Assembly (NCBI RefSeq): GCF_009905375.1
Contig: NC_133648.1
Location: forward strand, 23,305,884-23,369,883
From: Apium graveolens
Taxonomy: Eukaryota > Streptophyta > Magnoliopsida > Apiales > Apiaceae
DNA: 64,000 nt
Direction: 5' to 3'
Part shown: positions 4,680 through 53,453 of the stretch, piece by piece
How the letters are laid out: each line of letters begins with the position of its first letter
Numbering within the stretch: the stretch's first letter is position 1
Translations under genes and position numbers: made by a program
The notes under the pieces: model-generated
What the model saw: only the letters and a program-made list of their open reading frames with translations
The model's database searches: none
What the model was told of the DNA's origin: nothing

Positions 4680-4995
4680 CTTTTATACTTTGCTCAAACT
4701 CAACGGATAAAAATAATAAAGAGAAATAAATTACCCAATAGAAACTGCCTAAAATTACCGTTTTAAAATAAACTTTAAAAATTCCACCCATTATCCGTCG
4801 TGTAATGCTTATAAACTGTAAGTATACTCGATGGATAATGTTCAGGGAATTAACGGTTAAGATTTAGACACTTCGACGGATGAGGATAAAATGTTATCCG
4901 TCGAGCTTTAAAATATTCCAGAAAAGTAATTGATTTTTATTTACAATTTGTATATCGACGGATGACTCAACCGGATGGATAATGGTCATCCGTCG
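4680..4995 (-). promoter_or_regulatory. Element A putative internal promoter for the third ORF
   Basis: Between the pol stop (5092) and the third-ORF ATG (4571) lie seven copies or near copies of CGACGGAT/ATCCGTCG (4793, 4829, 4874, 4896, 4956, 4972, 4988). Downstream on the minus strand is a TATA box, TATAAAAG, at 4687-4680. Then comes a CT-rich leader of about 80-100 nt and ATG in the context ACAATGGC. The element's own LTR has the same order: motif array, then TATA. The arrangement is seen directly; promoter activity is inference. Confidence 0.6.
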
Positions 4996-5091
4996 AGAGA
5001 CAAATTTTGACTTAGCCAAAATTTCATCCAAGACTAAAAATCAACTAAATTTCTGGCTCCTTTTCAACTTGCAAGAATAATTCAGATAAAT

Positions 5092-7182
5092 TCAAGAGTA
5101 ATTAAGAATACCTAACTCACTTACCAACCTAGAAAAGGTGGATTCATCCAGTGTCTTGGTAAAAATATCTGCAAGTTGCTTCTCACTTGGAACAAAATGT
5201 AACTCTCCAGTACCATTCATTACATGCTCCCTTATGAAATGGTACTTGATGTCTATATGCTTTGTCCTTGAATGTTGCACTGGATTTTCAGTGATGGCAA
5301 TTGCACTTGTGTTGTCACAGAAAATAGGAATCCTTTCAACTTGCAAACCATAGTCTAGCAATTGATTTTTCATCCATAAAATCTGTGCACAGCAACTACC
5401 AGCGGCAATATATTCAGCTTCAGCTGTAGAAGTAGAAACTGAATTTTGCTTTTTACTGAACCAGGACACAAGCTTGTCTCCTAAAAATTGACAGGTTCCT
5501 GTTGTGCTTTTTCTATCAATTCTGCAACCTGCATAATCTGCATCTGAATAACCAGTTAGATCAAAACCAGAATCTCTAGGATACCAAATGCCAAGGTTTG
5601 GTGTTCCTTTGAGATATCTGAATATTCTTTTAATAGCTATCAAATGAGACTCTCTAGGATCAGCCTGAAATCTAGCACACAAACATGTAGCAAACATTAT
5701 ATCTAGCCTACTGGCTGTTAAGTACAGAAGTGAGCCAACCATGCCTCTATAACTTGAAATATCCACAGACTTTTCAGTAGTATTTAGTTCAAACTTAGTT
5801 GCAGTGGCCATGGGAGTTTGTGCAGATGTGCAATCCATTAGATCAAACTTCTTTAAAAGATCAAAAATATATTTAGTTTGACTAATGAATATTCCATCAC
5901 TAACTTGCTTAACTTGTAAACCAAGAAAGTAAGTTAGTTCTCCCATCATACTCATTTCATACTTGCTTTGCATCAGTTTGGCAAACTTTTTACAAAGTTT
6001 CTCATCTGTAGAGCCAAAAATAATATCATCTACATAAATTTGAACAAGTATGCTAGAGCCATTCACATTTCTGAAAAATAAAGTTTTATCTACAATACCT
6101 CTTGTGAAGTGATTTTCCAAAAGGAACTTTGATAAAGTGTCATACCAGGCTCTAGGTGCTTGCTTTAGTCCATAAAGTGCTTTCAATAGATAGTAGACAT
6201 ACTCTGGGAAATTTGGATCTTCAAAGCCAGGAGGTTGACTTACATACACTTCTTCCTCCAAATCTCCATTCAGAAAGGCACTTTTGACATCCATTTGATA
6301 GACCTTGAAATTGGCATGGGCTGCATAGGCTAAGAAGATTCTGATGGCTTCAAGTCTTGCAACAGGAGCAAATGTTTCATCAAAATCTATCCCTTCTTCC
6401 TGACAATAGCCTTTAGCCACCAATCTTGCTTTGTTCCTTACTACTATGCCATTTTCATCCATCTTGTTTCTGAATACCCATTTGGTGTCTATAGGATTCT
6501 TTCCTTTAGGCTTGGGTACCAGCTTCCATACTTTATTCCTTTCAAATTAGTTTAGCTCCTCCTGCATAGCTAAAATCCAATCAGGATCTAATAAGGCTTC
6601 TTCTACCTTCTTTGGTTCTTCCTTAGACAGGAAGCTGCTGTATAGACATTCTTCTTGAGTTGCTCTCCTGGTTTGAACTCTGGAAGAGACATCACCAATA
6701 ATCAGTTCAAAGGGGTAATTTTTTATCCATTTTCTTGGTTGAGGTAGATTAGCCCTAGATGAAGAGACCTCAATGTTGTCTTGATGTGTGATTGAGTTTT
6801 GATTGCTAGAAACTCCCCCTGAGTTTGTGGATCTTTGATTTGAAATTGGGGTGCTTTCTATGGGTGATCTGCCTTGACTTCCTGCTCCTTTTGATAACCC
6901 GACGGATGGTGAATTTTGAGTACCGACGGATGAGGCAGGTTGTCTCCCGACGGATAATACAGATTGCCTTCCGACGGATGAAGCATTCTGTAACTCGACG
7001 GATATTGAGTTTTGTGCTTCATTTGTAGTAAATTTGTCTGCATTATCCTTAGATACTGTTTCTTGATCACTTTCATCATCACTTTCTTCACTGACCATCT
7101 CAACATTGTCGAATTTGAGGCTCTCATGGTAATCTCCATCTTTTAGTCCTTCAATCTTTTTATCATCAAACACAACATGTAT
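5092..7182 (-). pseudogene. Element A pol, distal part: integrase-RT linker, reverse transcriptase, RNase H
   Basis: This continues A's pol after the insertion of B, which cut within a VESIY-like stretch just before the FDDKKI motif. Residues 1-210 form a Ser/Gln-rich linker containing 8-residue SVGRQ-type repeats. A TAA at 6547 interrupts the frame at the start of RT, within an EELN-FERN motif. The rest is open for 456 residues: RT with [21 protein letters not shown] and the catalytic YVDDIIFG box, then copia RNase H with [19 protein letters not shown] and a C-terminal [13 protein letters not shown] motif. RT and RNase H look complete and well conserved, so this is a recently active family, but the linker stop and the lost integrase join make the copy dead. 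Confidence 0.92.
6900..7003 (-). repeat. 24-bp coding repeat with invariant CGACGGAT core in the pol linker
   Basis: CGACGGAT begins at 6900, 6924, 6948, 6972 and 6996, exactly 24 bp (eight codons) apart. The core is identical in all five copies, while the other 16 bases of each unit have diverged strongly. In the pol frame the unit reads as SVGRQ-like octapeptides. Confidence 0.9.
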
Positions 7183-10100
7183 TGTAATAACCCCAATTTT
7201 TGGAAAATTTTGAAACCCTTATGAATAGTGTTTTTGCTGAATGAGAAAACTTTTCATGCCACACTATGTAGGGGTTCTGTTATGGATATTCTGGGATATT
7301 ATTAGTACTCTATGAAGTATATAAGTGTATGTAAAGATCGTCAGAATCCAATTCCGAACACTTTGGTTTTTCCCGGAAATCCACAAGATACGGAGAGAAT
7401 TGAGTATAAGGTAACAGGATAAAAAGGATTTAAATTAAAAAGGATTATAATAGAGGATCATAAAAAGGAATATAATGTATTGAGAAAGGTTAAGGGAACC
7501 TAAGTAATAAGATCCCGGGTATGATCCTTCAAACGATAAACGAGAACGAAAGTTAAGCGAACCGTATAACAGATCAGCGGTCATTAGGCAAACGATTAGG
7601 AAGTTAATCAAAGGGATTAGTGGGAATGATGTCATCCAACCAATAGAAAGAGGACAAGGAAGGGAGGATGACATCATGAGGATGATATAAGCATGACATG
7701 GGAAGGAAGGAGGTGTGGTTGAATGAGAACCACACAAATTCAAGGGCAAGAAGGTAATTGACTAAAGCAAGCACAAAAACCAAGCAACCAAGCCAAGCAA
7801 AAATCATTTTCATCAAAAATCAAAAGCAACCAAGGCTTTGTTCATGAAGCTCTCGGGTGGTTTTCTTAAAAAATGAAAGTCCAAGCTCCTCCACTTACTA
7901 TTTAGCAAGGTAATTATCTAAGCTTCCCCATGGATAGTTACATACTTCCTATAAGTTTAAGCTTCTAATTCCAAGCCAATCTTTTTCTATAAATCATGAA
8001 AGAAGATGGTGAATAGTGTTTTCAAGAACTAAAATTTGTGTTCTTGAAGTTTTGTTTAGATTAAGCTTGGATAAGGGCTTTAAAGGTGATTCCAAGCCAT
8101 TCTCTTGATTCTCCACTCTCCAAGGAAGGTATAAACTACAAACCCTAGCTTTAGTTTTGAGTAATTAGGATTGAATGTGTTTGATATAGCATATGTGAAG
8201 CATGATGCTTGAATGGTTGAAGTTTGGTTGAGTTTGTAGAGATTAGTTGGTTTTGTTGCATTGTTGGAGTTGTAAATCTTGGTAATTAGTTAAAGAACCT
8301 AAGTAAAGCTTTTAGTTCATGTGAGGAATAAGTATAAATGGTTAATGTGGATTTGTTGGGGTTGTTATGATGTGATAAGGATGGATGTTTGTTGTATGAT
8401 GGATTTGAGGTTGGATTTGATGTTGATTTGGAATGGGTTTGAATGGTTTAAATATTGGTAATCGCGTAAACATAGCCGTCGTAACGTCCGATTTTCTTTG
8501 GACTGTTTTTGTGCATAGAATTAGGACCCGAGAACCCCCTGCTAGATTATGACCACTGCCATGTTTAGATAGCTCATGTTACGAGCTTCGTTTTGATATG
8601 TAGTTCGTTCGATTCCGATGCACGGTTTAGGAGAAACGACCGTTTCAAGTAACGGCGTTTCGCGAACGAAACTTTTCCCCTCGCCTTACTTTGAAACATA
8701 GGTTAAAGACCAAAAAGGGTTAATTAATGTATGAAACATTTATGGTAAGTGTGTTAGGCAGTTGGGAAGACACTCGCGAAGGAATCGCTTTAAAACTCAT
8801 AAAGGTTAAATTATTAAAAATGGTGGAGCCGAGGGTACCCGAGTGACTTAAGCGAATCAGTGAGCGCAAAACAAGCGTTAGAGTCTAAGTTAGTTAAAGT
8901 ATAGATTTACAAGTGACTTTGGTTTAATTCCAACTTACTTGTTGTTTATAGGTTACCAGACTCGTCCCGAGCCATTCGTAACCCCAGTCGCTCAGGCAAG
9001 TTTTCTACCCGTTATACTGTTGTTGTGATGTATATATGTATATGCATTATCTTGCGATAGATGCATGATGTTTATATTAGAAAATGTTGCAATATATTGA
9101 AGCATGCTGCTATGGTATATATATGCATGCCTGTTTCATATTCTTTCCATATATAATTGTTGATTCAGTTGATAATACCTATGCTAGAGGATAGCGGTAA
9201 CTTGCGTATACCCTTAGTATAGGGGATAAAAGGTGAACATATTTCTAAACCGGGAGTCGATGTTCCCGAGTATATATATATATATATATATATATGGATA
9301 TAGTTTTTAAAACTATTAATTGAATAAGGTTTATTCGATAACTTTAACTTTATTTTATTATTGAATATTATTTCGAATATTATTCGAAGGCGTATGACTC
9401 CTTTACATTATTTATTGAATATTATTTGAATATTCATTTGAGGATGTATGACTCCTTTATTTTATTTAATGAATATTATTTATAATATTCATTCGAGGTA
9501 TTATGACTCAGCTTATTTTATTTATTGAATATTATTTGAATATTCATTTGAGGATCTATGACTCCGATTGTTTGCTGAAATATATTCTTTATTTTATTAA
9601 AGAATAAGGTGTTAATAATCAAACTTATTTTCGATTATTCAAATAAAGATAATACTTTCATATGAGTATATCTTTGGTTATTTAATACTCGTTTCGAGTA
9701 TAAGTTTTAATACTTCTACTTCAATTATTTTATAAAGATTATTTTTATGGGAATATTATTTAAATAATAATATTCAGACATTTTCTAAATATTCTGGGGA
9801 CTGATTTACTTCATTAAATCAGTTTTACTCCAAACACTCTTTAAAGTGTTTTCGAGTCTTTAAAATGATTTTCAAAAGTTAGAGCGGATCCCAAAACTAT
9901 TTTTATATTTAAGATCTTCCTTTTAAAAAGGGGATTTAAATACTCGCTCAAAACCTGGGGGATCCGGCTCGGTGGTGTGTTTTATATTCGCAACAAGGTT
10001 GCTGTCTTGGTAAAAGAGTTTTTGATTACTTACCCAACACTCGGGAAGTAAAATTCTTGGAACAAGTTAATCCATTAACAGGCATCGCCTGGGAAATATC

Positions 10101-11502
10101 GGTGAGTTCTCCTTTCCAAATGGATACGACTTCTTGGTGGAGCCGTATCAACAAGTTTCTACTTGGGGAAAGTGGGGACGAGCTTTACGTTTCAGAGTCA
10201 TGGATTTCATCTGAACTAGGAGTGGCGTAAGTGGCCGAGTAGCGCCGGCCCAGCCTTATTATATTGGCCCAAATGGCCTGGAAGTTCCGCTAAGGCGGTC
10301 CATTCCTTAGGAGTTCAGTGTTCGGTTGACAAGTAAATCCGACAGGTTCTCCTCTACATGTAGAAAATGGTGGGGTTGTACTACTACGACTGATTATCGT
10401 AAGTGGTCTTCCTGGCGCGGCAAACTCCCGTAATGAGTTCATCATCCAATTGGATAATTTCTGCAACACTACCCAGAGCACTTCGATAGAAAGGCTACGG
10501 TTGGGCGATTGTTGAGTGTTGGCAGGGTCAAGTTTTCAAAATGATGTTTACATCAAATGAAGTATCTCGTAACTTCATTTTATTTTGATAATATTTTAAA
10601 GATTTAATCTATTCAAATCTTGCCTTATAGTCTCATCTATGTGATGAACTTTTGTAGCTAATTATAACTTGAACGGTGGTAGTTCAAGTAGTATTTGGGA
10701 AAGATATAAGTATATTGGGGTATCTTGTAACTTCATCTTTTAAACTTATATCTAGTAAATGATTATCTTATGCATGACAAAGATTTTCAGAAAAACGGTG
10801 AGACAAGGTTAGATATATGAGATCACCTTGCAACGATATTTTTTTTATACAGTTATACACTGGGACTTTGTGTATATTATGTATGGAAGAGGACTTCCAA
10901 GATTTTGAAAAGTATATATGTATATATACTGAATATTTTGCGACTTCATCGCATTAAGATATCAACTTGGTTCATTTCTTTTGACCAAGACTTTCATGAG
11001 TACTATGAGAAGGCTCATATACTATTAATCATTATACATATTATTTTGGTGGGCTTGCTGCTCACCCTTGCTTTCTTCTTTCATCACATAACATCAGATA
11101 GACAAGATGAACCGGACCAAGCTCCCGATTCGCAAGAGGTTAGGAGACGTTCCGCAGTTTTCTAGAAGCACTGATGCCGCCATAGCTGAGGTAGGAACTA
11201 CCAATAGGCTAGGCTTTCAACTTTTGATGTATCAGATTATGTATATTTATGAATTGTAATAATGGCAAAGAAATGTAAATTTATTCGGAAACCTGTTTAA
11301 GGTGTATTGGCATATAATTGTGGAATAAAACGACTTGTGATTATTTTTGGATATTCATCTCTGAGACTATAACTTGTGGTGTGTGTGTTTATTGTGGGGT
11401 CACAGTACAGAGTAGTTGATTATTTATTAAGATTGGGTGTTGTTAAGGGAAATGGAACTCGTGACAACCCGGATCCCCGACCCCGGATTTGGGGGTGTTA
11501 CA
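7183..11502 (+). repeat. Element B 5' LTR (4,320 bp)
   Basis: The LTR starts TGTAATAACCCC and ends GGGGTGTTACA, immediately before the primer site. It contains a (TA)n run near 9270-9295 and a four-copy tandem repeat at 9345-9565. I see no convincing gene in it; an 86-codon ORF near its 3' end (10905-11165) is discussed as an observation. It is nearly identical to 16872-21190. Confidence 0.95.
9345..9565 (+). repeat. AT-rich tandem repeat in the element B LTR, about 55 bp x 4
   Basis: The phrase TATGACTC recurs at about 9393, 9447, 9502 and 9557, each preceded by a GAATATTATTT-like block. The repeat is present again in the other LTR at about 19034-19254. Confidence 0.75.
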
Positions 11503-11506
11503 GAAA

Positions 11507-11518
11507 TGGTATCAGAGC
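11507..11518 (+). other. Element B primer binding site (tRNA-Met type)
   Basis: TGGTATCAGAGC lies 4 bp after the 5' LTR. It matches the 3' end complement of plant initiator tRNA-Met, the usual minus-strand primer for copia and Tekay-type elements. Confidence 0.9.
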
Positions 11519-11918
11519 TAAGCGTTATAAACCTCAGAGATGATGGGACGTTAAGATAATAAGTTCACTAAGATAATAAGAACTCTTGCCAAGTTCATAG
11601 TCGGGCTACCTAACGTAGTACTGACAGTTAAAACCCTTATGGGAACCCTTATAAATATCGTGATAGGAGCGTAGTTCGTTATCATATATGGTAGCGGGAC
11701 TCCGAACCCTGAGGTTGAGGAGCAACATCGCGATGATATTTTATTACTAATTGGAGATCGGATTGTGGATCGGATAGAGTGTCCTAATGCAGGACCGGAT
11801 GATGTTGATATTGAGGATTTAGCGGTTGAGGATGTTGTCCTAGAAGGGATAGTTGTTGAGGAGGATCCCATGGAGGATCCTGACAGGATTGGATAAAGGA
11901 CCACTGATGAATTGATGA

Positions 11919-12760
11919 CCATGGTTTGGTCGACTACCAGAGGTAGGATTGGCCGGTCACTACCGGAGGTTCGTTCAAGTTGTAAAGATAGTAGCCCCTT
12001 TAACGCGGCTTACTCGTAAGACTAAGAAGTTCGAATGGACAGAGAAATGCGAGAACAACTTTCAAGAACTGAAGCAGAGGTTGGTGATGGCCCTTATGCT
12101 GGCGTTGCCGGATGGAAAAAAAAAATATTTTGTGAAGTATAGTGACGCTTCGCACAAGGGCTTAGGGTGCGTGCTTATGCAGCACGGTAAGGTAATCGCG
12201 TACATGTCAAGACAATTAAGGTAATATGAAATTCGATATCCCCGCTCATGAGCTTAGGCTCGTGGCAATAGTTTTACCCTAAGGATTGGAGGCACTACTT
12301 GTATGGAGAGAAGTGCGAGAATTACCTAAGCCATAAGTGCTCTAGTACATTTTCACGTAGAAAGAGCTCAACGTATGCCAGAGGAGGCAGTTAGAGCTAA
12401 TCAAGAATAATGATTGGGAGATTCTTTATCATTCGGGGGAAGCCAATGTGGTGGCTGATGCCCTTAGTAAAAAGGAGAGACTCAAGATTATAATGTCTTT
12501 GGGAGAGTTTATAAGAGATTTTGAAAAAATGGAAATAGTAGTGAAGGTAACCGGAGCCGGTACCGAAAAGCTGTTTGAGATAGCAATACAGCCCGAATTA
12601 TTGGAAAAGATTATATTGTGCCAGAAAAAGTTATGAATGAAGGTAGAGAGCCAACAAATAGATAAGAGGTTAATATCGAGAAAGATGATAAGGGAATAAT
12701 GAGGTATTCCTATAGAATTTGGATTCCGAAAGTTCAAGAGCGTAAGGATGAGATCTTAGA
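11919..12760 (+). pseudogene. Element B remnant: end of RT, RNase H and start of integrase (Ty3/gypsy)
   Basis: The stretch reads as gypsy-type pol in changing frames. At 11949-12224 an HYRRFV segment is followed by PLTRLTRK, FEWT, LTLPD-like and YSDASHKGLGCVLMQHGK motifs, which are the RT thumb and RNase H of chromoviruses. At about 12430-12640 come EANVVADALSKKER and QPELLEKI, the RNase H-integrase connection. Several stops and frameshifts are present. The RT catalytic core with the YxDD box is absent. This block lies upstream of the gag remnant, the reverse of the normal gypsy gene order, so the interior is rearranged as well as decayed. Confidence 0.8.
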
Positions 12761-13039
12761 TGAAAGCTAGTTTGAGGAATAAGATTTAGAGCAAACCCTG
12801 AACGTGATAGTCAGGGAGGTCGCCATCAAGATAGAAAGAACCCATGACATAATGGAGTGGAAAATGAGGATTTTAAATTAAAAGATGACCCCAATTATGG
12901 GGAGTAGGATGAAACATTTCATACTAAGGAAATAGAAAGTCGAGTAAGGAAAGGAGACCCGAGACGGTACTCCTATACGGCAATTCATGGACCTGTCTAA
13001 AAAGAACTTAGACTATTATCCCCAACCACCACCTTGAGG

Positions 13040-13340
13040 AAACAATGCGGTGAGAAATTCTTTCAAGACGTTTAAGTTTCTAAGCTCTCAGAGTTCCAGG
13101 GAACAAGCTGACCCAGTCGAGGCAAGAGCCTGGCTAAAGGAAATATAGGAATCATTTGAGATTCTAAATGATTGATGAACCACAAAAGACTGTTTTGTCA
13201 CTCACCCTCCTAAGAGAGAGACCACCTGCTGGTGAAAGGCCAAGGAAGGCACGGAGCAAGAGATTATAATAAACTGATTTAAGTTCAGTCAATTGTTTAC
13301 AGGAAAGTACTTCCCAAGGTTATGAAGATAATGTAAAAGC
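13040..13340 (+). pseudogene. Element B gag remnant
   Basis: One frame shows FKTFKF, DPVEARAWLKEI, ESFEIL and, further on, GTEQEII and LFTGKYFPR. These are the core of the chromovirus gag (retrotransposon gag domain). At least three stops occur within about 100 codons. No zinc knuckle follows. It lies downstream of the RNase H remnant, out of normal order. Confidence 0.75.
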
Positions 13341-16300: not shown

Positions 16301-16385
16301 AAGTTCTAATGATTAGAAGCTATGATGAGAGTCTGTGTAATAGACTTGAAAGAATTTGGAATGATCACTTAATGAGAATTGAGTT
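13341..16385 (+). other. Element B interior without recognisable gene
   Basis: About 3 kb with dense stops in all frames. The base composition resembles decayed gypsy coding DNA (purine-rich plus strand), but I could not identify protease, RT palm or integrase core motifs. An 86-residue ORF at 15677-15934 has a hydrophobic stretch but no match I recognise. Confidence 0.5.
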
Positions 16386-16850
16386 ATCTTACGACAATAG
16401 ATCCTATGTCATTATCGAGATGTCGCCTTATGAGATCCTTGAGGGAAGACAATGTCGATCTCCCTTATGTTAGGATGAAGTTGTAGAGCGCAAGATGCTC
16501 GGACCCGCAGTAGTCCAAAGGACCAAGGATATGATAGATCTAATCAGAGGACGGCTGGTAGTAGCCCAAGATGGACATGATAAGTATGTTGATTTGACAC
16601 GAAAGGATAAAGAGTATGAAATAGGGGACCTAGAAATGTTATAGGTATCCCTTGGAAAGGATTGATGAGGTTCGGAAAGAAAGGAAAGCTAAGTCCACAA
16701 ATTGTTGGACCATTGGATATATTAAGACGTTTTGGGAAGTTAGCATACGAGCTAGCCCTACCCCCGAACCTGTAGCAAGTTCATAACGTGTTCCACGTAT
16801 CAATGCTAAGAAAGTATCCCCATTTGTTCTCTATTTGATTCCGGGACGGA
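16386..16850 (+). pseudogene. Element B integrase C-terminal remnant
   Basis: The frame shows PYEILEGRQCRSPLC, DEVVERKMLGPAVVQ, LVVAQDGHDKY, EIGD, then LAYELALPPNL and HNVFHVSMLRKY with several stops and shifts. This is the C-terminal region of a Tekay/Del chromovirus integrase, ending close to the purine tract as in intact elements. No chromodomain could be made out. It supports the lineage call but cannot be functional. Confidence 0.85.
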
Positions 16851-16858
16851 ATCCTTTT

Positions 16859-16871
16859 AAGGAGGGGAGAC
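16859..16871 (+). other. Element B polypurine tract
   Basis: AAGGAGGGGAGAC directly abuts the 3' LTR start (TGTAATAACC). It is the expected plus-strand primer site. Confidence 0.85.
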
Positions 16872-22452: not shown

Positions 22453-22466
22453 ACATCAAAATCAAA

Positions 22467-24866: not shown

Positions 24867-24913
24867 CTTGCTGAATTATTTTGATCTTTAAACTCTTTGT
24901 AGATTAAGAGCTT

Positions 24914-34613: not shown

Positions 34614-34655
34614 GATTGTGTTTGGATCTTAAACGGTATGTGCGTTAACAGATCG

Positions 34656-34667
34656 GCTCTGATACCA
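34656..34667 (-). other. Element D primer binding site (tRNA-Met type)
   Basis: The minus strand reads TGGTATCAGAGC, 2 bp from the LTR end. Confidence 0.92.
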
Positions 34668-34669
34668 CT

Positions 34670-36499: not shown

Positions 36500-36594
36500 A
36501 TTTATCTGAGTTATTTTGCAAGGTGAAAAGTAGCCAGAAATTTAGCTGATTTTTAGTAATGGATGAAATTTTGGCTAAGTCAAAATTTGCATCT

Positions 36595-36910: not shown

Positions 36911-37019
36911 CTTATTTCATTTCAATTATTTTCTTTTATCATTCTCAAATTCAACTGCTTTTATTTCATTCTCTCTCAAGCAAATATTCTATTTCTCTTC
37001 AAGCTTTCATTTTCTAACA

Positions 37020-41522: not shown

Positions 41523-41565
41523 GGCGATCGCCGGAAGTTGTGGGAGATATGTAGGATAGGTGTAT

Positions 41566-41811
41566 GTATATATAGGGTGTGGAGTAGGTTAAATTAGATT
41601 AGGAGTGGGGTTGAGGGATAAAATCATGGGGTAATGGGAAAAGAATTCGTGGGTTTATGGGCTGTAATGGGTTTTTGTGTTTTTGTTTGTTTTTTTTTCT
41701 GAACTGTAAAAAAATTTCTGGAACTCGACCCCTGCGCGGCCGCTCAGCATTTCTGCGCGGGCGCGCAGAAAGCTGCGCGACCGCTCAGCATAGCTGCGCG
41801 GGCGCGCAGAG
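41566..41811 (-). promoter_or_regulatory. Element F putative internal promoter for the third ORF
   Basis: Between the pol stop (41966) and the third-ORF ATG (41522) lies the same GC-rich two-copy array as in the LTR (41731-41811). A TATA-like box, CTATATATAC, follows at 41575-41566, about 45 nt before the ATG. The order array-TATA copies the LTR. The sequence identity is direct; the function is inferred. Confidence 0.55.
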
Positions 41812-41965
41812 GGTCTTTGGAATTTTTTTTTCAGCCCCTGTTTTCTGATTTTTTTGTGTTTTTGGATAGGTTATTAACTTCTAAGGGTTCCTGTAACAAC
41901 AATTCATGGGTTGCCTCCCACGCATCGCTTCTTTTTCGTCATTAGCTTGACGTTCCGTACCTTTC

Positions 41966-44900
41966 TCACGTAGTCAACAAAATGGCACTAATCACCTCTC
42001 GGTTTGCCATGTCCCCATAGTAGTGCTTCAACCGCTGACCGTTAACCTTGAATGCTTGGTCCGAATCATTCTCAAAAATTTCCACCGCTCCGTGTGGAAA
42101 CACAGTTTTGACAATAAAAGGTCCAGACCACCTTGATTTCAACTTCCCAGGAAAAAGTCGGAGCCGAGAGTTGAATAACAGAACTTGTTGCCCTGGCACA
42201 AATAACTTAGGATGTAGCTTCCTATCGTGCCACCTCTTCACCTTTTCCTTATACATTTTGTTATTCTCGTACGCTTGAAGTCGAAATTCATCAAGTTCAT
42301 TAAGCTGAAGCATTCTTTTCTTACCAGCTGCATCTAAAGCCAGGTTCAATTTCTTCAATGCCCAGTAGGCCTTATGCTCAAGCTCCGCCGGTAGATGACA
42401 TCCCTTACCGTACACCAACTGAAACGGTGACATCCCAAGTGGAGTTTTGTATGCTGTTCTGTAAGCCCAAACAGCTTCATCGAGCTTTAAAGACCAATCC
42501 TTCCTTGTCGGACAAACAACCTTTTCTAGAATGCACTTTATCTCTCTGTTAGACACTTCCGCTTGACCATTTGTTTGCGGGTGATAGGCAGTAGCTACTC
42601 GATGATTCACATTATAACGCTGCATCATAGAAGTGAACTTACGGTTGCAAAAATGTGATCCTTCATCACTTATGATTACCCGAGGTGTTCTAAACCTTGT
42701 GAAAATTTGCTTATGAAGAAAATTTAGCACTGCCTTTGCATCATTTGTCGGTAAAGCTTTAACTTCGACCCATTTTGAGACATAATCGACTGCCAGCAAA
42801 ATGTACTGATTATTGCAAGACGAGATAAAAGGCCCCATGAAATCGATTCCCCATACATCAAAGACCTCGACTTCAAGCATCACATTTAATGGCATCTCAT
42901 CCTTCCTTGAAAAATTTCCCACTCTTTGGCAACGATCACACCTTAAAACAAACTGATGAGCATCCTTGAACAAGGTAGGCCAGAAAAAACCTGCTTGCAG
43001 AATACGAGCTGCCGTCTTCTCACCTCCATAGTGTCCTCCATAAACTGTGGAATGGCAGTCTCGTAATATCCCCTCCGTCTCACAGAACGGGATACATCTC
43101 CTGATGATCTGGTCAGTTCCCTGTCTAAACAAATATGGTTCATCCCACATATACCACTTCACCTCATGCAGAAACTTCTTCTTTTGCGCGGATGTCAAAT
43201 TAGGAGGCATTATATTGCTGACAAGATAGTTTACAATATATGCAAACCATGGTTCTTCCTCCTGAATTGCAAACAACTGCTCATCCGGAAAAGATTCATT
43301 GATTAACGTCCTATCTTGTGAAGTAGAATCGGGATTCTCCAACCTAGAGAGATGGTCAGCTACTTGATTCTCAGTACCTTTTATATCTTTGATCTCTAAC
43401 TCAAATTCTTGAAGTAAATGCACCCAACGAATGAGTCTCGGCTTCGAATCCTTCTTATAAACCAGATAGCGAATAGCTGCATGATCAGTGAATACTGTCA
43501 CTTTCGTACCAAGCAGATAAGATCGAAATTTCTCAAAGCCAAAGACTATAGCCAAAAGCTCCTTCTCAGTAGTGGTGTAGTTCAATTGGGCCCCATTTAA
43601 AGTCTTACTCGCATAGTAGACCACATGGAAGAGATTTTTCTTGCGCTGTCCCAGAACTGCACCTACCGTATAGTCACTCGCATCACACATCATCTCAAAC
43701 GGTTCTGTCCAATCTGGTGCTGTAATAACTGGTGCCGTGATCAAACTCTCCTTGAGAGTCTCGAATGCTGCCAAACATTAATCATCAAATTTGAAAGGTA
43801 CATCTTTCTCAAGTAAATTGCACAACGGCTTAGATATCTTTGAAAAGTCCTTGATGAATCGCCGATAAAAACCCGCATGACCGAGAAAACTACGGATTCC
43901 TTTCACCGAATTAGGTGGGGGAAGATTTTCAATGACTCCCACCTTGGCCTTGTCCACCTCCAGACCTTTGCTAGAGACCTTATGCCCAAGGATAATGCCT
44001 TCACGCACCATAAAATGACATTTCTCCCAATTAAGCACCAAATTAGTTTCCACGCATCTTTTGAGTACGGCGCGCAGATTATTCAAACATTCATCATATG
44101 AGTGTCCAAAGACGGAGAAGTCATCCATGAACACTTCGACGTTATTTCCAATCATGTCAGAGAATATAGCCATCATACATCTTTGAAAGGTGGCCGGGGC
44201 GCCACATAACCCAAACGAAACTCTTCGAAAAGCAAATGTGCCAAATGGACAAGTGAAGGTAGTCTTTTCCTGATCCTCTGGTGCAATACAAATCTGATTA
44301 TACCCGGAATACCCATCCAGAAGACAAAAATACTCATGTCCCGCCAATCTGTCAAGCATTTGATCAATGAATGGGAGAGGGAAGTGATCCTTCCTTGTGG
44401 CTTTGTTCAATTTTCTATAATCCATGCATACTCTCCATCTTGTAACTGTTCGAGTAGGGATGAGCTCATTCTTTTCATTTGCGACCACAGTGATACCTCC
44501 TTTCTTAGGTACACATTGCATGGGGCTCACCCACGAGCTGTCAGAAATAGGATAAATGATGCCTGCATCTAGCCATTTCAGAATTTCTTTCTTCACCACC
44601 TCCTTCATGATCGGGTTCAGTCTTCGCTGCTGTTCCACAGTTGGCTTACTACCTTCCTCTAACAGAATTTTATGCATACAATATGAAGGACTTATCCCCT
44701 TGATGTCTGCTATGGTCCATCCTATAGCCGATTTGAATTCTCTCAAAATCCTTAAGAGCTTGTCTTCCTCACTACCTGAAAGGTCAGCTGAAATAATAAC
44801 AGGTAACGTAGATGAATCACCTAAAAAGGCATACCTCAAGTGTTCAGGTAATGGTTTGAGCTCTAAGGTAGGCGCTTCCTCTATTGATGGTTTGAGCTTC

Positions 44901-47332
44901 CCTTCAGCGTTCATGAGGTCAGAAGTACCAAGAGATTCAAATGGTATATCCAGCTTTCGCTTCCAGGGAGAAGCGTTCAGATATTGTAATTGCTCGTTGC
45001 TATCTTCATCATCACTGTCAAATTCCCCCACTAAGGCCTTTTCCAATGCATCAGACATTAGCATGTGATCGAGTTCCGAAGTAACTGCGGAATCAATCAC
45101 ATCCATTTTTAAACACTCCTCATCTTCTGTAGGGAATTTCATTGCCTTGAATACGTTGAAGGTCACATCCTGATCTTGGACCCGCATAGTAAGTTCCCCT
45201 TTTTGCACATCTATCAAGGTACGACCAGTAGCCAAGAAAGGCCTCCCCAAGAATATGGGAATCTTCTTATCTTCCTCAAAATCCAGAATGACAAAATCTG
45301 CAGGAAAGAAGAGCTTACCCACCTTGACGAGCACATCCTCAACTATGCCCCTTGGGTAAGTAATGGAACGGTCCGCCAATTATAGCGACATGTATGTGGG
45401 TTTTGGATCAGGCAGATCCAGCTTTTTAAAGATCGACAAGGGCATCAGATTAATGCTTGCTCCCAAATCACAAAGGCACTTGTCAAAAGTTAGATTGCCA
45501 ATGGTACAAGGAATGGTGAAGCTTCCTGGATCTTTCAGTTTTGGTGGTAACTTTTGTTGCAGAACCGCACTGCATTCTTCCGTGAGAGCAACGGTTTCAA
45601 GGTCATCCAGTTTCACCTTCCTTGAAAGAATAGTCTTCATAAACTTCGCATAACTAGGCATTTGTTCCAGAGCCTCAGCGAAAGGTATATTGATGTGAAG
45701 TTTCTTGAACACCTCCAGAAACTTCCCGAACTGTCTATCCAGCTTTTGTTGCTGCAATTTCTTAGGAAAAGGTGGTGGAGGATAGAGCTGTTTCTCCCCT
45801 GTATTAGCCTCAGGCAGAGTGTGTTCAACATTAGTCTTCCTTGGTTCCGCCTCTTTCTCCCTTTGCTTAGATTCTTCATCTCTAACTTCAGCTTCGACTT
45901 CTTTTGCCTTTTCAGCATCAGCTACTTTTCCAGACCTTAAGGTAATAGCCTTGACTTGTTCTTTAGCTTCCTTCCTGCCTGGTACTTCCGTGTCACTGGG
46001 AAGAGTGCCAGGTTGACGATTGAGCACTGCATTGGCTAATTGACCGATTTGATTTTCTAAGGTCTTGATAGAAACCGCCTGACTCTTGCACAACAGCTTA
46101 AGTTCCTCAAAATCAGCACTAGTAGGTGCAGCTGCACTTCCCTGTTGAGGATATGATTGTCTTGTAGCATACTGCTGTGGTTGCTGGAATCCAGGTGGGT
46201 TAAACTGTTTACTCACTCCTTGCTGATATGGTGGCTGAATAGCATTCTGATTATTTCCCCAGCTGAAATTTGGATGATTTCTGTTGTTAGGATGATAGGT
46301 CGCTGGCACAGGCTGCTGTTGTCGCTGATAATTATTCACATACTGAACAGATTCGTTGACAAGAGAACACTGATCCGTAGCATGAGAACCTGCACAAAGC
46401 TCACAAACCATAGCTATTTGATTAACTCCATACGTAGCCAAAGAATCAACCTTCATTGATAGCACTTGGAGCTGGGCTGTAATAGCGGTGGCTGCATCAA
46501 CTTCCAGAATACCTGCTACCTTGCCTGATGTCATCCTCTGAGTTGGGTTTTTATGCTCATTTGCAGCCATCGTCTCAATAAGATTGTATGCCTCAGTATA
46601 GCTTTTAGCCCATAAGGCGCCTCCAGCTGCTGCATCGAGCATGGGCCGAGATTGGGCCCCCAAACCATTATAAAAACCAGTGATTACCATCCAATCCGGC
46701 ATTCCATGATGTGGACATTTTCTCAACATTTCCTTGTAGCGTTCCCAAGCCTCGCACATAGATTCTGTAGGTTGCTCCGCAAACTGAGTAAGAGCACTCC
46801 TCATAGCAGCAATCTTTGCCATTGGATAAAACTTCACCAGAAACTTTTGCGCAAGATCTTGCCACGTAGTGATGGACCCAGCTGGTTCAGAATGTAACCA
46901 GTCTTTAGCCTTATCCCTCAGTGAGAATGGGAAAAGCCTCAACTTGATAGCCTCATCAGTCACGCCATTATACTTAAAAGTGCTGCAGATCTCGATAAAA
47001 TTCCTTATGTGCATGTTGGGGTCTTCAGTTGCCGCTCCTCCAAAAGAAACAGAATTCTGCACCATCTGAATCGTGCCCGGCTTGATTTCAAAGGTGTTAG
47101 CTTGAATAGCCGGATGAAGGATGCTTGACTGAATGTCATCAATTTTAGGCCGAGAAAAATCCATAAGAGCTGGATCAGCTTGAACAATACGATCTCCCAT
47201 GTTTACTGGTTCTTTTTGCTCAGTTCCTGAATCCGAATCCTCAAAATCTAACTTCTCCGGAGTATCAATAACTTCGTCTTTTCCTTCAGCTGTATCTAAG
47301 GTCCTCTTGCGAGCACGAGAACGAGTTTGCAT
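41966..47332 (-). pseudogene. Element F gag-pol (1,789 codons, two in-frame stops)
   Basis: A single frame from the ATG at 47332. Gag has the retrotransposon gag domain (KLRLFPFSLRDKAKDWL, ITTWQDLAQKFLVKFYP) and a CxxC-type finger (CELCAGSHATDQC). The protease has CDLGASINLMP. RT has YSGYNQI, CPFGTFAFRR and the catalytic FMDDFSVFG box. RNase H has [12 protein letters not shown]. Integrase has an HHCC finger and a DDE core ([26 protein letters not shown]). Stops are TAA at 45380 (from CAA, before the LADRSITYP motif) and TAA at 43778 (from GAA). All catalytic residues I can check are present, so only these two point changes separate it from an open frame. Confidence 0.95.
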
Positions 47333-47449
47333 AAACGCTTGCTAAAGTACCTGAAACACAACCGAAAAGAGTAATTAACTACTACGTCCTAATCACTGAG
47401 TCCTAATGACCAATGATGGTAAGTAAATAAACTAAACAAATACGCCGAG

Positions 47450-47467
47450 TCCCCGGCAGCGGCGCCA
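47450..47467 (-). other. Element F primer binding site (TGGCGCC type)
   Basis: The minus strand reads TGGCGCCGCTGCCGGGGA, six bases from the 5' LTR end. Athila-type elements commonly use this site, attributed to tRNA-Asp. Confidence 0.88.
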
Positions 47468-47473
47468 AAAACT

Positions 47474-48932
47474 TGTTAGGGCGAAATCACGCACTAATAT
47501 TAACGCAAGTATACGCGTTCGCAAGTAATATAGAATACTTTCTAGTTCGTTCCCTCAGAGACTCAGACTAATTTATTGTCTAATTTAACTCACTCACCAA
47601 TGTATGATTACTTCTCAATGTTAAGATATCACTTAAAATTGTTGATTAAATATTAACTATAATTAACTACTTACTTAACCACTTAACTAACACTTCAATT
47701 TATCAATAATAAAACACTCATGAGATCACAACTTCATTATTACTTCCTTCTATAGCCATTGTTATTACCTTTAGCATGTGACAGTGATGATATTAATCGA
47801 ATAACACGAAACTGATAAAAGCCAACTTTCATTGTACTAATACCATTCTACCAAGCATCCACAATTAAGATAGAAGTTGAATAGTAATCAATTATGTTGA
47901 GTTCCTATATGTCTACAGAAATTGACAACACAACGATTTAAGCACAAGTTATTCCTTTTGATTACAAAAGGCAAATAAAACTGTTAGAGTTACCCACTAA
48001 TCATGCACAATGTACATGAACCTATGCTAGCATGGCAAGTTCTAAATCTCAAGATCCACCGTCGCTTCACAAGAGATTAACACCCTATCTTATATGTTCG
48101 CGACGCACATAAGACGAATACGCACAACCAATACTAGATATCATGCAATCATCACATACTAAAGTATTAAACAATTAACTAAAGAATTCCATAATAAATC
48201 CGTTGCAACCCCATGATCACGATTAGCCCATAATAGAACTTATCGCCATCATGGGTTCATATGAAATCATGATAAACAACACAAGAAAATAATAACTAAA
48301 CTAATTATATTAAAACAGAGTACGTCACAAGAGTAAATAAGTCAAAGCAAGCAAACTAGCATCCAACGTTACAACGAAACAAGAATCACAAGAATATATG
48401 CTTCCTCTTCGTTGCGGTGTGCTAAATCGGTCTTCTTCCTTATCTCCTTCGCTTCTTACAAAACACAATCTAAAACATAATCTCCTCTTAATACTCTGTG
48501 AAAAACGTCTCAAATCTACTTATATAATAGTCCCATAAAACTCAGATTACATAGAAGTTGGAAGCCAAACAGAAGTAGAAGTCTAAAATAATATATCTTT
48601 TTCCCCGACCCTGCGCGGCCGCTCAGCATTTCTGCGAGGGCGCGCAAGGCTGCTGCGCGGCCGCTCAGCATTGCTGCGCGGGCGCGCAGGACCCTTCTGG
48701 AAAAATTCCATGTTTGCTCCGTTTCTTCGCCGTAATCTGCCCGTTCTTTTCCTCTCGCAATGGTGAACACATGCCAAGGCTTATTCTTGATGATTCCTCC
48801 TCCGAAATGCAACTAATACCCTGAAATGCATAAACACTAGAAAAACGCATCAAATACACAAAATACTTGATTTCAAGACACCAATTTAAGCCATTTTAAG
48901 ACGTTCTAAGTGGTATAAAATGCCACTTATCA
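47474..48932 (-). repeat. Element F 5' LTR (1,459 bp)
   Basis: On the minus strand it starts TGATAAGTGGC and ends CGCCCTAACA. Its GC-rich array is at 48611-48689, with the TATA box near 48520. It matches 38256-39714 at the same length. Confidence 0.95.
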
Positions 48933-51900
48933 CTCACCCCAAACTTACACAAGAAAGAAGAAATCCAAAACCATTGGGGATGCACAGAGCACACATACAG
49001 TGCAAACTGGTGCTAAAGACACAGTCCCTGCACTTTCTCAAATTCAGTTTGATGTGGCTCCAATAAATGTGGAGTCATAACTAAAATCTCTTATAATAGA
49101 AGCCTCTGAAACACCATACTCACCAACAAACTCTCTGGAAGTGGATATGATAAACACTTCCATTCCTGATTCCCCTTCTTTAACTCTGTTGGGGAAGCTA
49201 AAATCTAGTGCAAGTAAGCATCATCGTTTAGATGCTTTGTTGGCTCACTTGCCAATTTTTTCAGATACTATTGTGACATCTGTGCCCCAAATAACTTCAA
49301 TCAACACAGAGTCAACAATAGTTTCTCTTCCCACCTCATTCATTTCTACTCTCTTGATGGATATTTCTCATCCGTCGAGTAGTGATTGTATCCCGACCGA
49401 TAAGCTTAACAGCAGTTATCCGTCGGATAGCTTTACCACTCACCCGATGGATATCACTTATCCGTCGAGTGTCTCTGCATAACTTCAAACTTCAATTATT
49501 TCTAGTATGGAAGATTTAGTGGTAATACAGTCACTCTTAGGACTGAGAGAGGAGAGTGCATTGAGTGAGAGGTTGGGTTGCTCCCAGGCAAAAGGAGAGG
49601 AAAAGAGTGAATCTCAGCAATCCATTTATTCAGGATTGGCAAAAGTGAGTGAGAGGAGTCCCACCTTAGTAGGTGAAGGTGAAGGTGTGAGGGTGGAGAG
49701 CCAGGGTGAGACCCTGATGTAACAAAAGAGAGATTATGAGAGAAAGGCAGGTACATGAGAAATAAGGGTGGATCCAGCCATTGTTAGTGAGTCAATGATT
49801 ATGGATGATGCTGAAAAGGAAAGACAATTTAGCAACATTACAAAGCTGAAATTGATAACATTTCCTTGGATGCTGACACTTTTACTCATCCTGTGTCAGC
49901 CTATCAATTGTTGGCTGCTCAGGGCAATGTGGAGGCAGAACAGACTTTGAATTTAGTACACACCTCAGAATCTCTTCAAAGAGATAAAGTTGCTGTCAAT
50001 AGGATGCCTTCTCAAGCTGGTGAGCCATCTGAAGAATTTGGAGTAAATTCTAATGATGATGACTCTGTTTCTTTGGATGGAAGCATGAACTTAGGGGGAG
50101 ATGAAGGCCCAAGTTCTGTTTTAAATTTACCTGGATGGGCATGGACAAAGGAATTTATACCAGGACAATTTGATGTGTCTTTGGTCAAGCAAGTGATGGC
50201 TATTCAAAAGGCCCTTCAGGAAACTTCAGATGCTGGTACCAAGGCTATTCTTCAAGCTCACCTAGACTCTCTACATCTCATGAAGATCCAGCACTTAAGA
50301 CAAAATATGAGTGTGGATGAACTAAAAAGTGATATAGCTGACTTGAAGACATACAATTCTGAGAAGCTGGATTCAGTAATGCCATATGGTACCATGCAAG
50401 ATCTATTACTAACATTGAGAAGAGAATCAGATTCTGAAAAGAAGCTAGCCAAGCTGGAAAATAGAGTTCAAGTTATTGAGAATTCAGTGGCTATCCTTCT
50501 TCAAAATCAACAGACTCAGACAAATCTTCTCATGCAACTGGCTAAAGCACAAGGCCTAACTCCTCAACTTGATGATAACAAAAAGGGGGAGAGAGAATCA
50601 AGTAAGGGGGAGAAAGGACCAACTGAGGGGGAGAAACTTCAAGTACAAATCAACAAAGTAATTGTAACTTCAATTACAGTCTCCAAGCCAACAGTTGCAG
50701 ATGGTATAGATCTAATTAAAGCAGCAGCAGCAAATTTGAAAGTTGCTGAAAAAGGAAAGTTGAGTTTGATCAACTGGAATAAGATTGATGAGGAGATACA
50801 GAAAAAGTTTGAACTAGTCAAGGAGCCAGTTCAGTCAGCCATCCATCACTCTCATGTCAAGCCAATCAGTGTGAATGAGATGAGCATGAACTATCTGGAA
50901 AAAGGACAATCTTCTTTCATCAAGTCTACAAAGGCTGAAAAAATTCTTAAAAAAAGGGCAAATTATCCAAAATCATCTTGGAAGAACCCTATGGACATTG
51001 TGTATGAGACACCCAAGCCTGATGAAAAGAAGCTTCTGTCAAGATCTATTGTCTTCTATAAAGATCCAGTTGATTCAGCTTCAAAAAGGAGAATTGCTAA
51101 GATATTCAGAAATGGAAAGGAAATTTGTGTGGTAGCTGGACATCCACAATTTGTGCAAGCAAAGAAAGAAGAAAAAGCCAGATTAAAGCAGGAAAAGAGA
51201 CAAGCTGCTCTAGATGCAAAGAAGTCTAAACAAAAGAAAGAACAGATTGCTATCTTGGCCAAGCTACAGGCTGTAAACTCTTCTCAACAAATTCCCTCTC
51301 AACTATCTGAAGCTGCTGAATCAAAGAAGAAAATTGAAGAACAGAAGAAATCCCCAAGGAAGAAAGAATTGGCTAGAAAAACAAAAAGGAAACTGGATGT
51401 TGTTGACAAGGAATTGGAAGATCAATTTCCTAAGGAATCCACACCAGCTACAACTCAAGCATCAAAGCCCTCTGTGGTATTTGAAGACATAAGGGTGGTG
51501 GATCCCTACAGGAACATACATGGTGAACCTATTGTGCCAAAGAATGAGCCAATAGAGTGGGATAACATACCAATTCCTGACTTCAACTTACCAATCCTTA
51601 GCAAGCCAAAAACGACAAAGTCAAGGGCAGTCAAGAAAGTGAAGCTGTCACCTCTCAAATCCAAGTCAGTAGTTAAAGCTCAACCCAAGGTCAACAGGGG
51701 AGACTACTTGTACTTGTGTGACATCAAAGAATTTTCAGATCTAAATCTTTATCTGGATGAACTGGATGAAGTAAGGGCAATTGATGCATACATAAACCTA
51801 CCTAAAAGGTTAGTGTTCAAGTACAAAGGAGGAAGGGAGATTCAGTGGCCACTTCATAGGATTCTTCAAGAAAGCCAAGCTGTGCTGATTAAAGTCTATT

Positions 51901-52265
51901 CATCCTTCAAGAAAAACTTTGGGTTCAATATAAGTGCAAGAAGACTAGTATTGAAGAAGATTGAAGAGCTGAGGAGTGTTAGAGCTAAAGATGCACTCCC
52001 AAAGACTCTAATAATCCCATATACAGGGAGAAGAGTGCATCTAAGGCCCTACTGGCTGATAGAATTCATGGATGACAAGGGTGTAAGAAGATTCTTCAGA
52101 TTAGAAGACCAATTGAGTATCTCTAGCAATGAGACTCTCTTGGAAATGCAAGAAAAGCTAGATCTCTCAGAATCTGATGAACTAGAATTCCACAGGCAGC
52201 TCCAGAATCAAATTGAAGAAAATAACAGAAAGCTTGGAAGAAGATCCAGACCTTCAAGGAACTAG
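48933..52265 (+). pseudogene. Element C third ORF, central and C-terminal part
   Basis: The frame resumes after F. Stops at 49078, 49480 and 49720 are CAR to TAA against A; 49756 is GGA to TGA. A missing C near 49830 shifts the frame. From 49866 it is open for 799 residues to 52265. This part has heptad-like KLENRVQVIENSVAILLQNQ, three Gly-Glu-Lys patches encoded by AGGGGGAG tracts (50583-50637), a Lys-rich helix and a conserved end with KTLIIPYTGRRVHLRPYWLIEFMDD. The long open stretch suggests the C-terminal region was under coding constraint until recently. Confidence 0.88.
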
Positions 52266-52437
52266 AAAAATCTGCTCAGGCTAGAGGAGCATCTTGAATT
52301 GACTGTGAGCCAAACCTTGCACATTTTAATTAATTGAAGCACTTTCAGTTTTATCTACTTATCTTTAAAGATATATGTTCAGGATGTTTTGTTATCATCA
52401 AGTATCTCTTAATTTATGGCTACAATTCCAGTAGACA

Positions 52438-52452
52438 TGAATTAGGGGAGAT
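52438..52452 (+). other. Element C polypurine tract
   Basis: GAATTAGGGGAGAT lies directly before the 3' LTR start TGTTGTGCATATG. Confidence 0.85.
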
Positions 52453-53453
52453 TGTTGTGCATATGTTGTGTACTTGCTGATTTCATAAACAAAACATCTA
52501 AGTAGATTTTACTTAGTGAAATTATGTAGCACTCGACGGATAAGAATTATAGTCCCGACGGATAACTCATTATAGTCCCGACGGATGATTAACTTATTAT
52601 CCATCGAGTGAGTAGCTTATGTAATAATAAGTTTGTAGCACAGTTATGTATGCACCTTTGTATAGAATCTGTAGTAGCATATAAGTCATGTTGACTTTAA
52701 CTAGATATGCAGAATAGGTTGATTAATTGTACATAAATAATGTCTTGTTATTCTGCATAAGTGATATAGAGTCAAGTGCCAAAATAGCTACCGACGGATG
52801 ATCAAATGACTATCAACGGATGTTTAATATAGCAGTCGACGGATGATCAATTAAATCATCAACGAATGTTCTGAAAGTCGACGGATGATCATATGAAGAA
52901 TTCAAACAACAGTTGAACAGTGAAAGCTGACACACAGCCGTCGAGATGTATACAAACACACTGTGGAAGCCCATTAACTGGGTAATAGAGGACGAAAAGC
53001 AGCAAAGCTTAAGACTGATAGATTTTATATTTGTTCAATCTTTTTGACTTTGTAATGTTGGTATTATATAAACCAAGAGAGTAGCAAATAGAAAAATAAC
53101 TGAGATAGCTGAGAAACACAAAAACAGAGAAATCTTTGTAAGCAGAATCATTAGCATTTCCTCTATTCTCAGTAGTTCCATTTGTAAGCAGCTGTGAGCA
53201 TTTCTGCACACAGAGTCCTCTCGATATATTATATATATCTCTGGTGGAATTGTTTAAATCCACCAGAAAGTTTTTAAAGACTCTTGTTTTTAATTACTTA
53301 TGTTTTGATTCAATTAAGTTTACATTCCGCATTGTGCTAATCAAAACAAATATATCTATAATCGAGTTGAACATTTTTATTTCAAGAAAAAGGTTCAAGA
53401 ATTCCTTTCAACCCTCATTCTGTAACTCTTGCTATATTGTTAAAGGACTAACA
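52453..53453 (+). repeat. Element C 3' LTR (1,001 bp)
   Basis: It starts TGTTGTGCATATG and ends GGACTAACA. CGACGGAT-type motifs lie at 52534, 52556, 52579, 52599 (inverted), 52792, 52814, 52837 and 52879. A TATA box, TTATATAAACC, follows near 53064. Homologous to A's 5' LTR. Confidence 0.94.

Follow-up and report, generated by a model that had tools for sequence, protein, structure and literature searches.

Short, repeated sequence words are known from several groups of transposable elements. The RM boxes of Sireviruses (Bousios et al. 2010, PMC2829016) are short CG-containing words present in many copies, each family having its own, and they cluster in the long terminal repeat (LTR) upstream of the TATA box and in the linker before ENV. 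As far as the available part of that paper goes, they are compact palindromes, lie in coding DNA only at the ENV start (Osr10, HOPIE), and the function of Sirevirus LTR motifs was left open in 2010. In the VANDAL/VANC system, a DNA transposon whose reader is known and tested, dense, family-specific words of 8–9 letters have grown by tandem repetition, change letters between families and lie mainly in non-coding DNA, according to the accessible portion of the report (PMC5735166). The LTRs of maize Sireviruses contain clusters of palindromes, CACCGGAC...GTCCGGTG, in a cis-region (Bousios et al. 2016, via PMC10760457), which are described there as strongly structured. Here we describe a comparable word, CGACGGAT, in 64,000 nucleotides of celery (Apium graveolens; assembly GCF_009905375.1, contig NC_133648.1, positions 23,305,884–23,369,883), hereafter the window, where it is clustered in a Sirevirus-like Ty1/copia family present as two nested, interrupted copies (self-comparison and Pfam). 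A sister family in the same genome carries a word differing by one letter in the same regions. We infer that a DNA-binding regulator probably recognises these as family-specific binding words.

The celery word resembles the RM boxes in being a high-copy, family-specific motif located in the LTR and ahead of the env-like gene, and in its CGG–CCG core: every exact site contains CGG (CCG on the opposite strand), which is retained in the variant CAACGGAT (6 occurrences in the window). Unlike RM boxes, the celery unit is non-palindromic, with its sites arranged as direct or inverted half-sites, and arrays also lie in gag, in the linker between integrase (INT) and reverse transcriptase (RT), and in mid-env. 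The palindromic dyad forms CCGTCGACGG and ATCCGTCGACGGAT had no occurrence in the window, and the inverted half-sites stand at variable spacing. An earlier note on this DNA, made from the letters alone, had likened the motif to the CG-rich, partly palindromic motifs of Sireviruses; the family-specific, CG-rich character was upheld and the palindromic unit was not. The one-letter switch at orthologous sites of sister families finds no mention for RM boxes in the available part of PMC2829016. The dense, family-specific words with letter changes between families are shared with VANDAL, in contrast to which the celery element is a copia retrotransposon. Clustering in the LTR is likewise shared with the maize palindromes, but only part of the celery arrays can fold.

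Counted on both strands, CGACGGAT has 37 exact sites in the window against 0.26 expected, and none of 100 dinucleotide shuffles of the window reached 37 (maximum 2). It was the top over-represented word in an unbiased 8-mer ranking of either copy, with 23 occurrences against 0.009 expected in copy 1 and 14 against 0.007 in copy 2, and its count was zero in the remaining four segments of the window (B, E, D and F). The clustering in LTR, spacer and coding regions reported in the earlier note was thereby confirmed, as was its absence from these four segments; the segments A and C, to which the sites had been confined, proved to be one family. The effective word is longer than eight letters, since Y stands before 35/37 sites and R after all 37, followed by A in 34, giving a consensus of about YCGACGGATRA. 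Among neighbour distances of up to 70 bp, with exact words and CpG-decay variants counted, 18/38 were 22–24 bp and 28/38 were 15–27 bp. Clusters were located in five regions (LTR, gag end, INT–RT linker, spacer and env-like gene) as follows.

25806–25879, both strands: LTR cluster 1 of copy 1, with three exact sites plus an inverted CGATGGAT
25504–25620, minus strand: LTR cluster 2 of copy 1, with four exact sites plus one CAACGGAT and one CAATGGAT, 19–23 bp apart
23175–23248, both strands: gag-end cluster of copy 1, an exact site with three one-letter variants at distances of 24, 24 and 18
6900–7003, plus strand: INT–RT linker cluster of copy 1, five exact direct repeats with a 24-bp period, read as SVE/SVG in the minus-strand gene
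4793–4995, both strands: spacer cluster of copy 1 before the env-like open reading frame (ORF), five exact sites of alternating orientation
2805–2902, both strands: env cluster of copy 1, five exact sites of alternating orientation, spacing 15, 27, 24 and 24
36595–36797, both strands: spacer cluster of copy 2, with all five sites exact and matching copy 1
49370–49467, both strands: env cluster of copy 2, with three sites exact and CGACCGAT and CGATGGAT at the remaining two places
52534–52606, both strands: LTR cluster 1 of copy 2, with three exact sites plus an inverted CGATGGAT
52792–52886, plus strand: LTR cluster 2 of copy 2, with three exact sites plus one CAACGGAT

The cluster coordinates first proposed were right to about 15 bases, except that 23174–23248 holds a single exact site (23199), with one-letter variants at 23175, 23223 and 23241. 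Correspondence between the two copies, also proposed there, is complete in the spacer (5/5 exact in both) and nearly so in the LTR (6/7), and holds at 3/5 sites in env. Within the window copy 1 alone shows the gag and INT clusters, since the corresponding part of copy 2 lies outside it; both recur in further genomic copies. In the LTR of copy 1 the sites occupy positions 82–155 and 341–457, upstream of a TATA-like box at LTR position 634 (613 in copy 2).

The word also stands in three coding regions, as the earlier note had said; these are the gag end, the INT–RT linker and the env-like gene. It is read as SVG/SVE in the INT linker and as HPS/YPS with PTD/STD in gag and env; the gag-end cluster encodes HPSA/YPSN/YPSD and STDD in the minus-strand frame, and the env cluster of copy 1, which sits mid-ORF, encodes HPS/YPS and PTD. 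Selection might be sought in the peptide, were the disordered linkers of gag, INT and env to carry a linear motif, and the shared frame and peptide of the gag and env arrays, in linker-like segments, would suit this. The INT array is however in another frame, sites stand on both strands, and the non-coding LTR and spacer are likewise occupied by this word. Peptide-level selection is contradicted by the LTR and spacer sites of the window and by LTR sites in other copies, and we regard it as extremely improbable. Given two reading frames and both orientations, in coding and non-coding DNA alike, selection appears to act on the DNA.

The word is kept in the arrays while the DNA between the sites diverges. 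Letter comparisons within arrays gave 80/80 identical motif letters against 73/160 between motifs in the INT array, 24/24 against 14/33 in LTR cluster 1, 107/120 against 89/165 in LTR cluster 2, and 20/24 against 17/48 in the gag array. The window was also compared with eight other copies per array, retained from 44 searched loci after too-short matches were dropped and all found through the motif except the random locus L142: the INT motif columns agreed in 279/296 comparisons against 707/934 in neighbouring columns, and those of one gag site in 63/64 against 356/472. From copy 1 to copy 2, 14/17 sites were kept exactly, compared with 3,611/7,098 (51%) of other 8-mers (p 0.008), and CpGs were retained in both copies at 31/35 places inside the word against 10/27 outside (Fisher 3e-5).

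Genome-wide searches covered 3.33 Gb, with tandem pairs defined as words 22–24 bp apart. The pattern CGACGGATN{14,16}CGACGGAT gave 42,559 + 42,387 = 84,946 matches, and the reversed-pattern control gave 2. Altogether 33 loci were inspected (8 automatic and overlapping, 4 hand-picked, the random L142, and 20 further hand-picked), those other than L142 being drawn from the first ~100 pair places listed, within the first 5 Mb of one contig. At 13 of these loci (12 motif-picked, several overlapping) every site fell within a family-like element, in its LTR, gag or INT linker. At the 20 further loci 76/78 sites were within relatives of the family, and the other two, both at L156, had LTR matches on one side and env matches on the other, from a diverged relative. 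Twenty unselected 10-kb stretches (200 kb) contained CGACGGAT six times near family-like sequence (21 kb), all at L142, and once outside it (179 kb), inside a cluster of the sister word at L138. In the same 200 kb, 179 controls, words composed of the same letters and likewise containing two CpGs, occurred 1.1 times on average and up to 7 times, so the unselected sample is weak by itself. The genome-wide check of restriction proposed in the earlier note was carried out in part: the motif-picked loci agree with restriction, and the unselected sample is small.

In many protein relatives a repeat occupies the same place of env and gag with other letters. Window-like celery env proteins mostly have [HY]PS with PTD/PMD/SMD, others have [HY]PL with STD, and some carrot proteins have an HQL with STD repeat; possible DNA readings of the three types are CGACGGAT, CAACGGAT and CAACTGAT, respectively. 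CAACGGAT, which had also been noticed before as a variant in the window, was proposed from these proteins ahead of the genome search for it, which with CAACGGATN{14,16}CAACGGAT returned 26,758 + 26,633 = 53,391 pairs (control 5 + 0).

Four sister elements were picked by their CAACGGAT pairs in LTR, gag and INT, the env and spacer pieces not being chosen by motif. Their 20 pieces (19 informative, 1 empty) contained 110 CAACGGAT and no CGACGGAT, and the CAACGGAT pieces cover five regions in three elements and four regions in the fourth. The empty 'spacer' piece of element 4 (L190) was discounted as a negative, being env 5' sequence. At the window's five env sites two sister elements have CAACGGAT at 5/5 and a third at 4/5, with the same spacing and with flanks 58% identical; the fourth was outside this alignment, where the row for L139, an unselected locus, represents that locus's spacer cluster and was set aside. 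All four sister elements carry CAACGGAT at the exact gag site of the window. By alignment, the env sites and one gag site are orthologous between the families, and the LTR, INT and spacer clusters are matched at the level of the region. L139 itself has 16 CAACGGAT and no CGACGGAT; its four clusters occupy the gag, INT and spacer places and a position close to one end of the stretch, which is presumably the LTR. RT identity to the window is 85.6% for L139 and 82–84% for three short RT pieces. The sister family has, in the same genome and the same regions, CAACGGAT in place of CGACGGAT, with one letter changed. Since it has arrays in the same regions, the 'spread' into coding regions described in the earlier note may be old.

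A third word, CAACTGAT, appears to be implied by some carrot gag and env proteins. In a back-translation scan all 32,896 words were scored for compatibility with the peptides, and TCAACTGA ranked first in both scanned carrot env proteins and in two of four scanned carrot gag proteins, the remaining two (P0186 and P0196) having other peptides. Its joint score in carrot was 13.2, compared with at most 3.9 in ten shuffles, although TCAACTGA can match one site in two ways; that of CAACTGAT was 7.8. Pairs of CAACTGAT are almost absent from the celery genome (34; control 14). In the env protein P0011, TCAACGGA tied for first place with TCAGTGGA, which was ahead (7.7 vs 6.9) when the P0060 linker was added. 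In two joint scans of gag and env from celery CGACGGAT took ranks 1 and 2; with the window env and linker together it ranked 11, and with the window linker alone 268 of 32,896; for the window env segment it ranked 2 with a score of 3.5, inside the range of six shuffles (2.8–4.4). Other words outranked CAACGGAT in P0028, P0041, P0103 and P0174, and the scan found no word in the Heracleum env protein P0013. One protein filed under Rhizophagus irregularis (P0191) resembles a carrot Sirevirus gag with the HQL/STD repeat and is probably host-plant contamination.

The arrays might also be by-products of replication slippage and CpG decay, that is, minisatellite units expanded by chance in which CAACGGAT is decayed CGACGGAT. 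The number of 24-bp units does vary between copies, and in the CGACGGAT loci L149–L172, with 121 intact words, CAACGGAT (14) occurs about as often as other CpG-decay products (CGATGGAT 21, CGACAGAT 12, TGACGGAT 12). However, the spacers of the units are 35–54% identical while the words are nearly unchanged, CGACGGAT is absent from the CAACGGAT pieces, and decay would have struck both CpGs. Decay does not easily account for the CAACGGAT family, because beside 110 intact words only three have lost the remaining CpG (2 CAACAGAT, 1 CAATGGAT); the fair part of this argument is the env and spacer pieces, since pairs of CAACGGAT in LTR, gag and INT had served to select the elements. An origin by slippage and decay is very unlikely.

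A function of the arrays as RNA was weighed by folding. Hairpins of inverted sites could affect translation, packaging or small-RNA production, with letters changing by compensation, and z-scores of −6.2 (env), −4.9 (LTR cluster 1), and −2.9 and −3.1 (two spacer pieces) point in this direction, as do the maize Sirevirus palindromes, which the partly available source describes as structured and attracting small RNAs (PMC10760457). The direct-repeat arrays fold little or no more than chance (INT linker z −2.1, LTR cluster 2 z −0.1), and compensation within a single hairpin needs no shared word in direct-repeat arrays elsewhere. A pure hairpin function was rejected, folding being favoured at 4/6 tested pieces and less or absent at direct-repeat arrays; for the same reason the hairpins are more likely a side effect. 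We consider an RNA role improbable.

For a word that is kept in coding and non-coding parts regardless of frame and strand, and that differs by one letter in the same regions of a sister family, the best explanation is a recognition site with a changed reader. In the reading as binding words, ~YCGACGGATRA would be the DNA recognition word of one Sirevirus-like family, set out in half-site arrays of mostly 15–27 bp spacing in the LTR upstream of the TATA-like box, in the spacer before env, in gag, in the INT–RT linker and in env. A sequence-specific DNA-binding protein would occupy these arrays and promote transcription of the element or keep its chromatin open, with a possible effect on silencing. 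Word and reader would change together, and the letter replaced in the same regions of the sister family would follow a change of reader.

The reader could be a host transcription factor acting on the LTR word, with the coding sites additional or incidental and the letters following a shift among related host factors; this is a real possibility, though not the one we would expect. CAACTGAT and CAACGGAT resemble what we take to be MYB-type CNGTTR sites, which would favour a host factor, and CGACGGAT, on the same assumption, does not match CNGTTR, which counts against it. According to the accessible text of PMC2829016, RM boxes lie in the upper LTR half upstream of TATA boxes, and the celery LTR sites likewise precede the TATA-like box. 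A host factor alone leaves unexplained why the same switched letter is found in the gag, INT and env arrays as in the LTR.

Alternatively, the reader could be encoded by the element itself, as the env-like product, gag or integrase, so that each family addresses its own copies in a VANC-like manner; we hold this to be somewhat unlikely. The one-letter switch across all five regions between the sister families speaks for it, as does the third word implied by the carrot gag and env proteins and almost lacking in celery, and so does the likeness to the VANC motifs, which are short, dense, family-specific and grown by tandem repetition in the part of PMC5735166 available. That the VANC motifs are mainly non-coding in this source, while celery sites are also coding, speaks against it, as does the failure to find a DNA-binding domain above the cut-off.

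Several results weigh against the reading as binding words, whichever the reader. All loci save the 20 random stretches were chosen by motif and lie within the first 9 Mb of one contig. The comparison of motif columns with flanks between copies 1 and 2 was borderline (132/136 vs 563/608, p 0.057), the LTR alone had no difference in CpG retention (13/14 inside, 6/8 outside), and L139 had no cluster at the env place. The words are also mixed in part: there are 14,508 mixed CGACGGAT–CAACGGAT pairs in one order genome-wide and 1,825 mixed inverted pairs at 15 bp, the mixing rate being uncalibrated for both, and CpG decay may account for much of this mixing. The peptide types are mixed in P0028, P0046, P0175, P0190, P0186 and P0203. 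AlphaFold models of two env-like domains had a mean predicted local distance difference test (pLDDT) of 51.7 and 57.5, too poor for a fold search, and the env-like protein matched no DNA-binding family above the cut-off. In one Heracleum relative a Myb/SANT-like family was matched weakly and below the cut-off (E 0.019). A sequence search of solved structures gave no relative, with a single match of E 0.07 in one search and none in another.

The element was classed as Ty1/copia by its Pfam domains (RVT_2, E 7e-80; Retrotran_gag_2, E 1.7e-21) and, judged by its primer binding site (PBS) junction, its LTR of ~1 kb and its env-like ORF, is Sirevirus-like. Its parts are mapped below.

1–7182, minus strand: 3' part of copy 1, with INT end, INT–RT linker, RT, spacer and env-like ORF up to the window start (self-comparison, Pfam)
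21191–25960, minus strand: 5' part of copy 1, with LTR, PBS, gag, protease and INT (Pfam domains)
24928–25960, minus strand: 5' LTR of copy 1, 1,033 bp, TGTTG...ACTAACA, 88% identical to the 3' LTR of copy 2
24914–24927, minus strand: primer binding site ATTGGTATCAGAGC adjoining the LTR, an exact match to the Sirevirus junction of PMC2829016
1860–4571, minus strand: env-like ORF of copy 1, ATG at 4571 (stop-to-stop ORF 1860–4664)
35261–38257, plus strand: copy 2, with RT end, spacer and start of the env-like ORF (self-comparison, Pfam)
48948–53453, plus strand: copy 2, with the remainder of the env-like gene and the 3' LTR (LTR 52453–53453)

In copy 1 the RVT_2 domain lies within 5092–6546, gag with its zinc knuckle within 23415–24875 and the INT core within 21115–21747; its 3' part is 90.9 and 92.2% identical to copy 2. 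Element B (7183–21190) is inserted between the two parts of copy 1, and the gypsy element D (38258–48947) within copy 2. The Sirevirus 5' LTR junction, CA/ATTGG with PBS TATCAGAGC, is present as an exact ATTGGTATCAGAGC after ...ACTAACA. As candidates for the multiple polypurine tracts that Sireviruses have before the 3' LTR, AGGGGGAG occurs four times in sense in copy 2 (50093–50626), though inside the env-like ORF and 1.8–2.4 kb upstream of the LTR, and GGGGAGAT directly abuts the 3' LTR of this copy. Candidate poly-C tracts near the LTR 3' end (CAACCCCCC in copy 1, CAACCCTC in copy 2) were placed by eye at ~40 bp from the end; the integrase poly-C signal of Sireviruses stands at a mean of 21 bp from the LTR end in the available part of PMC2829016. 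Part of the genus Sirevirus has an env-like ORF following pol; the env-like ORF after RT here has 934 aa stop-to-stop and relatives in Apium, Heracleum and Daucus, its protein being closest to Apium graveolens proteins, then to ENA and Heracleum proteins and then to those of Daucus.

Other repeats were observed in the window and in the random loci. Element D has GC-rich 21-bp repeats of its own with a CTGCGCGG core (10 vs 0.124 expected) in its LTR and internal sequence, possibly a similar word system in another superfamily.

39393–39471, 41732–41809 and 48611–48688: GC-rich repeats of element D

The 4.3-kb LTRs of element B are 99.65% identical, so this element inserted recently; it has a PBS-like site at 11505. 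Positions 53721–63763 hold two 4.4-kb direct copies, 92.6% identical and ~1.3 kb apart, with a PBS-like site at 59384 on the minus strand; together they may be one large LTR element nearly devoid of internal genes. In the LTR of element E (34640–35300) there are ATCAGNACTTA-like repeat units, perhaps its family's own motif, and the random loci L131, L133 and L137 contain tight clusters of the 8-mers AGAGAACT, GATGTCTA and GCGTTACA, which are candidates for further family words.

Among the matches listed from the open-licence literature, a scope outside which most subscription papers fall, titles and abstract beginnings gave no hint of an earlier report of CGACGGAT or of the letter switch. A scan of viral contigs for the motif pair gave at least 120 stretches and nothing usable, and a scan of them for RT gave no confirmed match. 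To our knowledge, from recall and the open-licence literature, there is no earlier sign of coevolution between motif and reader in an LTR retrotransposon. We put forward, as a tentative and rather speculative proposal, that Sirevirus-type elements run a self-addressed system of word and reader, in which families arise by a joint switch of both, with at least two words present here and a third in carrot. If this is true, a protein made by the element would read the word of its own family in the LTR and the genes, and would protect or activate only that family. Two words that differ by one letter, each with tens of thousands of pairs in the genome, make the question of what such motifs do a tractable one of protein specificity, namely which protein distinguishes them.

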